Program-made: the position numbers and the translations under genes | Notes under the pieces: generated by a model | The model's input: the letters and a program-made list of their open reading frames with translations, nothing else | The model's database searches: none | Told to the model about the DNA's origin: nothing | Assembly: GCF_020042665.1 (NCBI RefSeq) | Contig: NZ_CP083376.1 | Location: 2,702,001 to 2,766,000 of the forward strand | DNA from: Pseudoxanthomonas sp. X-1 | Lineage (GTDB): Bacteria > Pseudomonadota > Gammaproteobacteria > Xanthomonadales > Xanthomonadaceae | DNA: 64,000 nt | Direction: 5' to 3' | Shown: piece after piece, positions 5,707 through 17,285 of the stretch | How positions within the stretch are numbered: position 1 is the stretch's first letter | Layout of the letters: every line of letters begins with the position of its first letter

Positions 5707-8358
5707 CTACTCGGCCCGCGCCAACTCCTGTGCAAGGAACGGAGCGGTTCTGCTGCCAGACGTTCGGGCCACCTGCTGAGGGGAGCCCGCCACCACGATG
5801 CTGCCGCCGGCAGCGCCTGCACCAGGCCCCACGTCGATCACCCAATCGGCCTGGGCCACCGCGCGCATATCGTGTTCGATCATCACTACGGTATTGCCGG
5901 CATCGACCAGGCGCTGCAACTGCACCAGCAGCCGGTCGGCGTCCGACGCATGCAGCCCGGTAGTCGGCTCGTCGAGCACGTACAGGCTTCGGCCGCGCTG
6001 GCTGCGCTGAAGCTCGGTCGCCAGCTTGATGCGCTGCGCCTCGCCACCGGAAAGCTCAGTGGCTGGTTGTCCCAGGCGCAGATAGCCCAGTCCGATGTCG
6101 CGCAGCAGTTGCAGGGGCCTTGCCACCGCGTCTTCACCCGCGAAGAATTCGCTGGCCTCGTCCACGGTCATCTGCAGCACCTCGGCGATGTTGCGCCCGT
6201 TCCACTGCACCTTCAGCGTGGCCTCGTTGTAGCGCGCGCCATGGCAGGTCGGGCACGGCGCGTACACGCTGGGCATGAACAGCAGTTCCACGCTAACGAA
6301 ACCCTCGCCCTCGCAAGTCTCGCAGCGCCCCTTGGCGACGTTGAACGAGAACCGTCCGGCATCATAGCGGCGGCGTCGAGCATCGGGCGTGGCAGCGAAC
6401 AGCTTGCGCACATGGTCGAACAGGCCCGTGTAGGTGGCCAGGTTCGACCGCGGCGTGCGCCCGATCGGTTTCTGGTCCACCTGCACCAGACGCTGTACGG
6501 CGTCCACGTCGCCCGCCAGATGGCCGCCGGTCGCTTCGATCACTGCCGGCCCTTCGCTGGTGGCGCTTTCGGCTACATCGTCTTCCGGCTCGTGGCCCAG
6601 GTGCAGCAGCACCAGCTCCGGCAGGGCCTGCGCGACGAGGCTGGACTTGCCCGAGCCGGAGATGCCGGTGACGGCCGTCAGCACGCCCAGCGGAATGCGC
6701 GCATTCACGCCATGCAGGTTGTGGCGGTGAATGTCCTGCAGCTCCAGCCAGCCGGTCGCTTCGCGTGCCCGGCTTCCCGGCGCGGGGATCTCATCGAACA
6801 GGTAGCGTGCAGTACGCGATTCGGCAATCTTGCGCAGGCCATCCGGCTCGCCGCTGTAGAGCACGCGGCCGCCACGCTCCCCAGCATCCGGCCCGACATC
6901 CACCAGCCATTGCGCGCGGCGCATCAGGTCCAAGTCGTGCTCCACCACGAACACCGAGTTGCCGGCGTCGCGCAGCCGGTCGAGCGCGTCGTACAGGGCC
7001 TGGCTATCGGAGGGGTGCAGGCCCGCGGAGGGCTCGTCGAGCACGTACACGACACCGAACAGCAGGGAACTCAATTGCGTGGCCAGCCGCAGGCGCTGCA
7101 ACTCGCCGGCCGAAAGCGTCGGCGTGGCCCGGTCCAGCGTCAGGTAGCCCAGGCCCAGCCCACGCAGTTGGCGCAGGCGTGCCATCACGCCACCGGCCAG
7201 GCGCTGCGCGGCGAGGCGCTTTTCTTCCGATAGCGCCGAGGTGCGGCGCACGTCGGGCGATACCGCATGGACGGCGCGGCCGGAGGCCGCGCGTTCGGCA
7301 CGGTCGCGTCGGGTCGCTTCCTTGTCCGTAGCCGCCCCCGCTGCATGGGCGCGGAAATCGCCCTGGGCGATGGGTTCGAGCAAGGCCGCCAACTGGTCCA
7401 GCGGCATCTGCATGAACGCGCCGATGTCCACGCCGGCGAAGGTGACCGACAGCGCCTCGGGCTTGAGCCGCTTGCCGTGGCAGGTGGGGCACGGTTTGCC
7501 CTCCATGAACCGGGACACGCGCTTTCTCATCAACGCGCTCTGGGTGTTGGCAAAGGTGTGCAGCACGTAGCGCCTGGCGCCGGTGAAGGTGCCCATGTAG
7601 CTCGGCTCCATCTTGCGCTTGAGCGCGGCGCGGGTTTCGGCGGGCGTGAAGCCGGCGTACACCGGCACCGTCGGTGTTTCCTCGGTGAACAGAATCCAGT
7701 CGCGATCCTTCTTCGGCAGGTCCTTCCACGGTCGGTCAACGTCGTAGCCCATGCTGACCAGGATGTCGCGCAGGTTCTGGCCTTGCCAGGCGGGGGGCCA
7801 GGAGGCGATCGCCCGCTCGCGGATGCTCAGGGAGGGATCGGGCACCATGATGGCCTCGGTCACCTCGTACACATGGCCCAGGCCGTAGCAGGTCGGGCAC
7901 GCTCCCTGCGGCGTGTTGGGCGAAAAATCCTCGGCGTACAGCATCGGCTGGTTGGCCGGATAGGCGCCGGCGCGCGAATACATCATCCGCACCAGGCTGG
8001 ACAAGGTGGTCACACTGCCCACGGAGGAACGCGCGTTGCTGGAGCCCCGCTGCTGCTGCAGCGCCACCGCCGGCGGCAGGCCGTCGATCGCATCGACGTC
8101 CGGCACGCCGGCCTGCTCGATCAGTCGCCGCGCATAGGGGGCCACCGACTCGAAGTAGCGTCGCTGGGCCTCGGCATAGATGGTGCCGAAGGCCAGCGAG
8201 GACTTGCCGGAGCCGGAGACACCCGAGAACACCACCAGCGCGTTACGCGGGATGGAGACGTCCACCTCCTTGAGGTTGTTCTCGCGCGCACCGCGCACTT
8301 CCACCATGCCGCTGGCCGCAGCGGTACAAGAGGATTCACCGAAAGAATTGTTTGGCAA
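5707..8358 (-). CDS. uvrA: Class II UvrA-like ABC ATPase (UvrA2/DrrC type)
   Basis: An 883-residue twin-ABC protein with Walker A motifs GVSGSGKSS (about 46-54) and GISGSGKSS in the second half, Walker B DEPSAGLH and DEPTTGLH, signatures LSAGE and LSGGE, and zinc-binding CPTC/CETC pairs. Just after YSRAGAYP it goes almost directly to the GACPTC motif, so the UvrB-binding domain of about 110 residues in E. coli UvrA is missing. That is the hallmark of UvrA2 proteins, linked to tolerance of DNA-binding or crosslinking agents. The start is taken as TTG at 8358: it has AGGA seven bases upstream and lies 25 bp after nhaA, whereas the longer frame overlaps nhaA. It is the last gene of the minus-strand run. 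Confidence 0.88.
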   Translation of the reverse strand: MPNNSFGESSCTAAASGMVEVRGARENNLKEVDVSIPRNALVVFSGVSGSGKSSLAFGTIYAEAQRRYFESVAPYARRLIEQAGVPDVDAIDGLPPAVALQQQRGSSNARSSVGSVTTLSSLVRMMYSRAGAYPANQPMLYAEDFSPNTPQGACPTCYGLGHVYEVTEAIMVPDPSLSIRERAIASWPPAWQGQNLRDILVSMGYDVDRPWKDLPKKDRDWILFTEETPTVPVYAGFTPAETRAALKRKMEPSYMGTFTGARRYVLHTFANTQSALMRKRVSRFMEGKPCPTCHGKRLKPEALSVTFAGVDIGAFMQMPLDQLAALLEPIAQGDFRAHAAGAATDKEATRRDRAERAASGRAVHAVSPDVRRTSALSEEKRLAAQRLAGGVMARLRQLRGLGLGYLTLDRATPTLSAGELQRLRLATQLSSLLFGVVYVLDEPSAGLHPSDSQALYDALDRLRDAGNSVFVVEHDLDLMRRAQWLVDVGPDAGERGGRVLYSGEPDGLRKIAESRTARYLFDEIPAPGSRAREATGWLELQDIHRHNLHGVNARIPLGVLTAVTGISGSGKSSLVAQALPELVLLHLGHEPEDDVAESATSEGPAVIEATGGHLAGDVDAVQRLVQVDQKPIGRTPRSNLATYTGLFDHVRKLFAATPDARRRRYDAGRFSFNVAKGRCETCEGEGFVSVELLFMPSVYAPCPTCHGARYNEATLKVQWNGRNIAEVLQMTVDEASEFFAGEDAVARPLQLLRDIGLGYLRLGQPATELSGGEAQRIKLATELQRSQRGRSLYVLDEPTTGLHASDADRLLVQLQRLVDAGNTVVMIEHDMRAVAQADWVIDVGPGAGAAGGSIVVAGSPQQVARTSGSRTAPFLAQELARAE

Positions 8359-8383
8359 GTTTTTATCCTGTAGTTCGTCCCGC

Positions 8384-16950: not shown

Positions 16951-17009
16951 GATGTCGCTTCCTTTACTAGCTAACTAAATTTGCCCTCACCGAGGGCACC
17001 CTGGTGCCT

Positions 17010-17285
17010 CTACCGCAGATAGGAGCGGACGATAGAGATGGTCTCGTCAATGGACTTGTTCTGCGAATCGCTCCTGATTTCGCTACTGGGAAACTCTTCC
17101 CGCAGATAGCTCTCCAGAACGGTTGCCATCAATCCGTTGACTGCCCCACGAACGGCCGCAAGCTGCTGAAGAATTGCAGGGCATTCCGCACCTGCATCGA
17201 GCGCTTGCTCAAGAGTCGCTACCTGACCTTTGATGCGCCGGATGCGCGTCAGGGCTTGCTTCTTTTCTTCCGGGCTGTGTGGCAT
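17010..17285 (-). CDS. frmR: FrmR formaldehyde-responsive repressor (CsoR/RcnR family)
   Basis: A 91-residue all-helical repressor. It begins MPHSPEEKKQALTRIRRIKG, with the Pro2 and conserved Cys (DAGAECPAI, about residue 36) that in E. coli FrmR are crosslinked by formaldehyde, which releases DNA. The start was set at this ATG because homologues begin here; the longer frame runs through the promoter. It is first in a co-directional run of nine genes ending at uvrA. A dyad and TATAAT box lie 32-56 bp upstream. Confidence 0.92.
   Translation of the reverse strand: MPHSPEEKKQALTRIRRIKGQVATLEQALDAGAECPAILQQLAAVRGAVNGLMATVLESYLREEFPSSEIRSDSQNKSIDETISIVRSYLR

Follow-up and report, generated by a model that had tools for sequence, protein, structure and literature searches.

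A mobile formaldehyde-defense island with a probable DNA-repair arm in Pseudoxanthomonas sp. X-1

Genes for the detoxification of formaldehyde lie beside genes for DNA repair on what is likely a mobile element in Pseudoxanthomonas sp. X-1, and the locus raises the question of whether the repair genes belong to the formaldehyde defense or merely travel with it. The window analyzed here is a stretch of 64,000 nucleotides (contig NZ_CP083376.1, positions 2,702,001 to 2,766,000), and the genes in question are a run of nine on its minus strand and a divergent paralog of uvrB close by. We consider it probable that the nine genes make up the principal operon of a mobile formaldehyde-defense island with a repair arm for residual damage; the comparisons below establish, at the level of sequence, gene content and spacing, the operator, the recurrence of the cluster, the divergent UvrB clade and the domain losses.

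The run occupies 5707-17285 in the order frmR, frmA, VOC, DUF3422, fghA/frmB, NDH-2, rarA, nhaA-thioredoxin and class II uvrA, with intergenic gaps from frmR to uvrA2 of 59, 43, 182, 58, 16, 51, 54 and 25 bp. An earlier sequence-only reading had reported these nine genes, their strand and their spacing, all of which match, and its gene names are upheld by domain and curated-family scores; a gene for a formaldehyde-type sensor does head a tight, co-directional run ending in repair genes, with an operator upstream of it:

17320..17341, minus strand: FrmR-type operator ATACTATGGTGGAGTATTGTAT, upstream of frmR and overlapping a TATAAT sequence
17010..17285, minus strand: frmR, formaldehyde-responsive repressor (NF008464 155.8 bits, cut-off 133)
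15841..16950, minus strand: frmA, S-(hydroxymethyl)glutathione dehydrogenase (TIGR02818 726 bits, cut-off 544)
15399..15797, minus strand: VOC/glyoxalase-fold protein (PF00903 and PF18029)
15263..15297, minus strand: 15-bp hairpin between VOC and DUF3422, terminator-like in the scan
13882..15216, minus strand: DUF3422 membrane protein (PF11902, E 1.6e-145)
12993..13823, minus strand: fghA/frmB, S-formylglutathione hydrolase (TIGR02821 418 bits, cut-off 282)
11669..12976, minus strand: ndh, type II NADH dehydrogenase, NDH-2 (Pyr_redox_2 and NDH2_C; PF22366 36.8 bits, cut-off 27.7)
10304..11617, minus strand: rarA/mgsA, replication-associated recombination ATPase (MgsA_C, E 9.7e-64)
8384..10249, minus strand: nhaA with a fused C-terminal DsbA-like thioredoxin domain (TIGR00773 289, cut-off 254; PF06965, PF13462, PF01323)
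5707..8358, minus strand: class II uvrA (UvrA2), a UvrA without the UvrB-binding domain
20683..22659, minus strand: divergent uvrB paralog (UvrB family domains and scores, UVR motif degenerate)

The start of DUF3422 is taken as 15216, as implied by the 182-bp gap; its longest open reading frame begins at 15285. FrmR, for which a response to formaldehyde is predicted, combines a score over its family cut-off with an operator of its own, and has Pro2 and Cys35, both presumably functional. FrmA and FghA each exceed their curated cut-offs, giving both enzymes of glutathione-dependent formaldehyde oxidation, and the activity of NDH-2 is predicted from its Pyr_redox_2 and C-terminal domains. The uvrB gene and fdhA (26976-28220), encoding a glutathione-independent formaldehyde dehydrogenase, lie on the same element and were absent from the sequence-only reading, uvrB falling outside its coordinates.

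The divergent uvrB is the most distinctive component of the island. By fold its product is a UvrB (TIGR00631 905, cut-off 750; NF003673 932, cut-off 743), keeping Walker A, UvrB_inter (the UvrA-interaction domain), the UvrB domain and most helicase motifs. The C-terminal UVR motif is the part of UvrB that binds UvrC; we could not identify PF02151 in the island protein at 1e-3, whereas the other UvrB of this genome has it at 1.2e-9, and the UVR signature residues are replaced in all nine island UvrBs compared, setting them apart from the canonical UvrB of UvrABC. These nine (from the window, Aeromonas, Comamonas, E. coli, Acinetobacter, Sphingomonas, Shinella and two Phaeobacter records) span the alpha-, beta- and gammaproteobacteria and form one clade (SH-aLRT 100; all trees were quick searches with SH-aLRT support only) apart from 30 other UvrBs, a non-random set of the 29 best-scoring database loci plus the genome's own copy, assumed to be chromosomal. 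Taking as near-invariant any column that is the same in at least 28 of the 30, we found 50 of 301 such positions altered in all nine island UvrBs, while two control clades, of 7 and 3 rows, each altered 2 of 281. Part of this contrast is plain divergence, since the stem of the island clade is much longer than theirs. Among the altered positions are those of the UVR motif and helicase motif regions, and Tyr97 to Phe together with its neighbors, a region that we take to be the beta-hairpin. Four UvrBs from outside the Pseudomonadota have the usual residue at 265, 251, 256 and 251 of the 301 positions, and at 32-39 of the 50 (23 of the 50 in all four); from this comparison, a good part of the 50 changes is derived in the island clade and some columns are merely variable outside the phylum.

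At E 1e-255 this UvrB was found in 1 of 398 genomes of the phylum and 1 of 395 of the family, both times the window's own genome. Among the best 60 plasmid matches, frmA is near the island-type uvrB in 58, the other two (NZ_CP022533.1 and NZ_CP102104.1) being records without a check for frmA; its position is known in 47, always within 12,190 bp (for NZ_CP037914.1, the start of a match spanning frmA-VOC-fghA), and 11 more match over the joined uvrB-frmR-frmA stretch. A single Enterobacterial cluster, in nearly identical copies, accounts for most of these records, so the independent evidence amounts to about seven lineages rather than to the number of records.

The second repair protein shows a loss of its own. 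PF17760 (UvrA_inter, the UvrB-binding domain) is absent from the island UvrA at 1e-3, while another UvrA of the genome carries it (3.8e-36); the fold without this domain is that of a class II UvrA and not of the UvrA of canonical UvrABC, and the best match among solved structures is 2vf7, named as D. radiodurans UvrA2 in PMC5128194. The island thus encodes two repair proteins, each without a domain that would connect it to the following step of ordinary excision repair. Relatives of UvrA2 were studied as the best 80 of at least 583, and in a tree of 97 rows the 15 with frmA (at least 60% identity) in the stretch fall in three separate clades. The frmA label requires 6 changes on this tree, at least 5 of them forced by starred branches, against a mean of 14.2 for shuffled labels (0 of 500 as low), which demonstrates clustering only; three frm-linked clades therefore imply repeated joining, or joining and loss. 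For some rows without frmA in the stretch the gene is elsewhere on the plasmid (L008, 99%; L013 and L130, 86%), and for others (L011, L014, L127, L132, L133) no frmA was found on the plasmid at E 1e-80.

Two of the latter deserve description. On Rhodococcus plasmid pLP1 (L127, 13730-19705) a 60% fdhA homolog is divergent from uvrA2, followed by an unannotated 73% nhaA, so that uvrA2 and nhaA are paired next to a dehydrogenase of formaldehyde type outside the phylum as well; in each of the 8 Rhodococcus plasmid records that carry the nhaA relative, the 60% fdhA homolog starts at most 5 kb away. A Kozakia baliensis plasmid (L133, 6246-12975) holds together fdhA (82%), uvrA2, hxlA-hxlB (by annotation the RuMP route of formaldehyde fixation) and a DUF3422-like stretch, split into two overlapping pieces, in which no gene is annotated. 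L007 and L008 are rearranged: genes for an alkene reductase, an LLM oxidoreductase and an alcohol dehydrogenase surround uvrA2-nhaA, frmA is several kb off, and uvrB was not found in these stretches.

Given these two proteins, the next question is how constantly the whole set recurs. An Aeromonas caviae plasmid carries the same 13.5 kb with 96% identity, so that the gene order which the sequence-only reading proposed to look for on other mobile DNA does exist there, but other plasmids share much of the content in different orders. A Pseudomonas profundi contig has the nine genes at 98-100% protein identity, with uvrA2 incomplete. Enterobacterial clusters read frmR-frmA-VOC-DUF3422-fghA-ndh-uvrA2, with uvrB divergent, cydAB present, and rarA and nhaA not present in the stretches read; 55 plasmid records contain at least 80% of a 22.6-kb query of this version, and among 5,426 E. 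coli genomes there are 11 that contain at least 80% of an 11-kb query. In Comamonas the order is frmA-VOC-DUF3422-fghA-ndh, then ZIP-rarA-uvrA2, with uvrB upstream. Sphingomonas (L010) has frmA-VOC-fghA-ndh-DUF3422-uvrB-uvrA2 on one strand behind fdhA, with cydAB, so that uvrB and uvrA2 stand inside the frm run at gaps of 64 and 22 bp. Shinella has uvrB, rarA and nhaA, Phaeobacter has uvrB, and Acinetobacter has gfa in the usual place of VOC together with uvrB, gshA, a ZIP transporter gene and cydAB; uvrA2 is not in the stretches read from Shinella, Phaeobacter and A. pittii. Sphingomonads and Agrobacterium carry a small frmR-frmA-uvrA2 set.

It follows that DUF3422, ndh and uvrB are recurrent, while rarA, nhaA and even uvrA2 are variable. 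The sequence-only reading had divided the run into five detoxification genes and four that respond to the consequences, a division that does not survive: ndh recurs with frmA and fghA in most full clusters, and of the other members of its second half rarA and nhaA are frequently missing, as is uvrA2 from the three stretches named above. Its two halves do occur apart, which it would have taken as damaging had they never been met together; in fact they are found together repeatedly, and detoxification genes with UvrA2, UvrB or both recur on unrelated backbones, that of Sphingomonas being one. Judged by this recurrence in other gene orders and by the island UvrB clade, the link between detoxification and repair appears to exceed chance.

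The arrangement upstream of frmR suggests how the run would be controlled. The 22-base operator pattern has one match in the window and none in 100 shuffles (up to 3 mismatches allowed), and is presumed to resemble the operator of E. coli frmRAB. With a matrix made from 5 training sites upstream of frmR genes (window, Aeromonas, E. coli pEc19, Acinetobacter) and 13 sources scanned with 10 shuffles of each as the null, the window site, itself among the training sites, scores 33.3 against a null maximum of 23.4. Outside the training set, above-null matches were found in A. pittii upstream of a ZIP transporter-gshA pair (in sequence the same as a training site) and beside frmR, in Sphingomonas (L010) upstream of cydAB, and in Shinella upstream of frmA and of frmR. 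On pEc19, where the operator separates the divergently oriented uvrB and frmR, a palindromic variant of the FrmR motif (17511-17532) also scores above the null, upstream of an iron-containing alcohol dehydrogenase gene near a second frmR; a Phaeobacter match (5422-5443) falls within an annotated bestrophin gene. On the A. pittii plasmid pAbW39-1 (13255-23974) FrmR-type operators precede ZIP-gshA as well as two frmR genes, and together these may form a small regulon for formaldehyde that includes glutathione synthesis. For the window, the single operator at the head of closely spaced genes is consistent with co-regulation of all nine, which would be co-transcribed and induced by formaldehyde.

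A working model can be put together from these parts, in which we infer every repair step. FrmR would sit over the frmR promoter and release on meeting formaldehyde, allowing the run to be transcribed; FrmA and FghA would oxidize formaldehyde to formate, using glutathione, and NDH-2 would re-oxidize the NADH produced by FrmA, with cydAB, gshA and ZIP, where present, helping it to provide NAD+, an electron sink, glutathione and zinc. DUF3422 and NhaA-thioredoxin may be membrane helpers in ion and redox balance; we propose no role finer than membrane support, and the earlier suggestion that nhaA answers acid or ion stress from formate is speculation. RarA would tend stalled forks and, with UvrA2 and the UvrB paralog, would handle DNA-protein crosslinks and stalled forks caused by formaldehyde that escapes oxidation. 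The island UvrB, having kept the UvrA-interaction domain and helicase core, could be loaded at crosslinks by the host's normal UvrA and need not pass on to UvrC in the usual manner; UvrA2 might act alone on obstructing complexes, by analogy with UvrA2-like resistance proteins. As far as the accessible text of one study goes, uvrA and recA mutants of E. coli are formaldehyde-sensitive, nucleotide excision repair and recombination protect against formaldehyde crosslinks, and excision repair removes small DNA-protein crosslinks, its action on larger ones being limited by UvrB loading (PMC6945406). A bolder proposal, which we hold tentatively and regard as rather doubtful, is that formaldehyde islands carry a separate excision-repair branch for DNA-protein crosslinks, disseminated together with the detoxification enzymes as a single kit, in which UvrB no longer recruits UvrC in the usual way and is often joined by a UvrA2 that no longer binds UvrB.

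Could the repair genes instead be passengers? If only frmR, frmA and fghA matter, then the repair genes, ndh and nhaA would be generic stress cargo, co-directional by chance, and the elements do bear other cargo, rarA and nhaA are missing from the Enterobacterial stretches, and UvrA2 relatives stand in many other contexts. The idea that class II UvrAs are generally found beside aldehyde genes was in fact rejected, as it did not pass its control: immediate neighbors against genes 5-6 away gave 3 vs 3 for Zn-alcohol dehydrogenase, 2 vs 2 for aldo/keto reductase and 6 vs 2 for DJ-1/PfpI (Pfam families in 146 immediate and 127 distant proteins at 76 UvrA2 loci, first 25 families listed; genes called by our own script, with L015 and L021 excluded by choice and L023 and L093 for want of a gene call over the anchor). 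Such cargo would hardly be expected to include a private UvrB clade seen, among the genomes surveyed at E 1e-255, only in the window's own and accompanied by frmA in 58 of 60 plasmid records (the other two without a check), nor frm-linked UvrA2s in three separate clades and a Sphingomonas run that encloses both repair genes, and we regard a passenger role as unlikely. Improbable, too, is that the island UvrB and UvrA2 are extra copies that boost ordinary UvrABC against bulky damage (UV, cross-linkers), with formaldehyde one inducer among several: the retained Walker A, UvrA-interaction domain and helicase motifs and the removal of small crosslinks by excision repair noted above would suit such a role, but the missing UVR motif (PF02151) and PF17760, and the 50 altered positions with the Tyr97 region among them, would not.

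The structure of the transcript is where a further alternative arises, namely that an inducible frmR-frmA-VOC unit ends at the hairpin and that DUF3422 to uvrA2 are transcribed separately or at a low level. The hairpin in the 182-bp gap is the strongest of 18 terminator-like sites in 5500-23500 (shuffle mean 13.0, sd 4.3), and stands in the same place in the Enterobacterial and Comamonas clusters with compensatory changes: across 5 sequences, 5 pairs have two-sided changes and 97.1% of cells are paired, against at most 45.8% in slid controls. It may process, attenuate or end the transcript. The T-run behind it has interruptions (ATTTGCTTTG), a scan that missed the frmR promoter too gave no sigma-70-like promoter for the minus strand of 5500-23500, and in Sphingomonas frmA, VOC, fghA, ndh, DUF3422, uvrB and uvrA2 are consecutive on one strand; all of this argues against two transcripts, which we think unlikely. 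Besides the short control stems and the neighbor comparison, several observations do tell against an operon with a dedicated repair arm. The frmR-frmA and DUF3422-fghA gaps hold weaker terminator-like hairpins, and because the hairpin sites are terminator-like the transcript is possibly split or attenuated; the operon itself is a prediction from sequence. The matrix scan gave no above-null operator upstream of uvrB or fdhA in the window, nor any in L006, L007, L012, L131, L133 and L176, and frmR is missing from what was read of the Comamonas cluster, where a LysR-type relative adjoins frmA. In the UvrA2 tree 82 of the 97 rows have no frmA in the stretch covered, and label changes do not separate gain from loss. 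UvrB and UvrA2 are not constant partners: 19 frmA-bearing stretches divide into 7 with both, 8 with uvrA2 only and 4 with uvrB only, some of them ending at a contig or stretch edge (L023 and L096, both uvrA2 only, are cut or truncated). On balance we still favor a formaldehyde-inducible island with a repair arm.

The predicted model of DUF3422 is of low confidence (mean pLDDT 60.3, 3 sequences), and a Foldseek list headed by CorA, at TM-scores of about 0.2, weakly suggests a CorA/Mrs2-like topology. As an island marker ndh was rejected: at E 1e-60, and counting the window's own genome, 52 of the 398 genomes of the phylum have relatives of 47-68%. Where RarA is of the island type (at least 90%) the cluster is present in 6 of 6 plasmid records; a Variovorax with a 62% rarA has no formaldehyde gene within the 22 kb read. 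A Schlegelella stretch (L015) was rejected as an independent "second half", being a decayed copy of the full run: behind a transposase it has the last part of ndh, rarA without its middle, nhaA in two frames, and uvrA2. In a Dietzia sp. contig a class II uvrA is immediately preceded by an NhaA-thioredoxin relative (71-84%), and nothing in the stretch matches frmA.

The cluster is likely cargo of an ICE-like element, the integrase and tRNA-Gly marking its probable end; of the features of an ICEclc-like element at tRNA-Gly, the integrase, tRNA-Gly, TraG_N and MobH are present, and the far end and second att site were not located:

765-2282: TraG_N gene, ICE-type, on the same side as MobH
3782..5626, plus strand: MobH relaxase gene beside the cluster (97% match to a gene annotated as mobH)
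19627..20532, plus strand: LysR-type regulator, related to that of Comamonas
26976..28220, plus strand: fdhA (PF08240/PF00107), 100% identical to an Aeromonas gene annotated as fdhA
30790-31770: Dyp-type peroxidase
31808..33793, minus strand: tyrosine integrase adjoining tRNA-Gly (Pfam integrase domains)
33978-34053: tRNA-Gly beside the integrase

Sphingomonas (L010, L033) likewise has a Dyp-type peroxidase gene next to uvrA2, and the available part of the ICEPni1 account (PMC7466150) lists a dye-decolorizing peroxidase; this gene may be a further recurrent member of the cluster. Across a tRNA-Gly/Cys/Gly group (33978-34358, the two tRNA-Gly copies identical) the element is bordered by a gene with UvrC domains (UvrC RNaseH, UVR, GIY-YIG; 34990-38235), probably the host uvrC and probably there by coincidence owing to the tRNA-Gly target. 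The genome has further copies of UvrB (56%), RarA (52%), NDH-2 (56%) and frmA (82%, DNA), and outside the window a second class II UvrA (C1:1071255-1073891), 92% identical to the island copy; none of its five flanking open reading frames has a Pfam match at 1e-5.

If the bolder proposal is right, bacteria would possess a mobile repair module dedicated to formaldehyde damage. A UvrA2 and an altered UvrB traveling with formaldehyde enzymes would have a concrete, testable substrate in DNA-protein crosslinks, and mobile biocide tolerance could then include damage repair beside detoxification, which is relevant wherever formaldehyde or formaldehyde-releasing agents are used. In open-licence PMC literature we found nothing on the divergent UvrB clade, the repair half or a formaldehyde-repair operon, and nothing on DUF3422.

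How, finally, does the island compare with known systems? Mobile frmA has long been known, and plasmids of the pVU3695 adhC/frmA type resemble the island in having frmA on mobile DNA; there, in the portions of the literature available, the dehydrogenase is treated as the mechanism. Formaldehyde-resistant clinical E. coli are described with mobile frmA and, in newer cases, with frmB "interspersed with other genes" (PMC13029678, PMC8003927, from the accessible passages), and the word uvrA does not appear in the main texts of these two papers on plasmid-borne formaldehyde resistance. E. coli frmRAB has in common with the island the FrmR repressor, FrmA and S-formylglutathione hydrolase (PMC13029678, in part); the island run has six more genes, including ones for respiration and repair. 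Near precedents are two elements, published in 2020, that have formaldehyde and Uvr genes as listed cargo: VR4 of ICEPni1 in Pseudomonas nitroreducens HBP-1, an ICE that integrates at tRNA-Gly, with FrmA, FrmB, FdhA, RarA, UvrA and UvrB (PMC7466150), and a hospital ICE of P. aeruginosa and Serratia (cluster C30), with formaldehyde genes, UvrA and UvrB (PMC7156236). The gene set had thus already been listed on ICEs, without functional analysis, and the accessible parts of both accounts describe no operon, function, divergent UvrB, class II UvrA, operator or recurrence; the sequence-only reading, whose author was aware of no such operon with RarA and a class II UvrA, had overlooked these listings. 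Like D. radiodurans UvrA2 (2vf7), Ecm16 and DrrC, the island UvrA has the UvrA fold without a UvrB-binding domain; in the available text, the role of UvrA2 is called unclear (PMC5128194), and Ecm16 is reported to protect E. coli even without UvrB (PMC10192343). Unlike these three, it has formaldehyde genes as neighbors, joined in some of the clusters by a UvrB paralog. That paralog shares with canonical UvrB the fold, UvrB_inter, Walker A and helicase motifs, and differs from it as a separate clade with the UVR motif lost and shared substitutions in helicase regions and in the presumed beta-hairpin. The recurrent core defined here is sharper than the nine-gene list with which the locus was first described.

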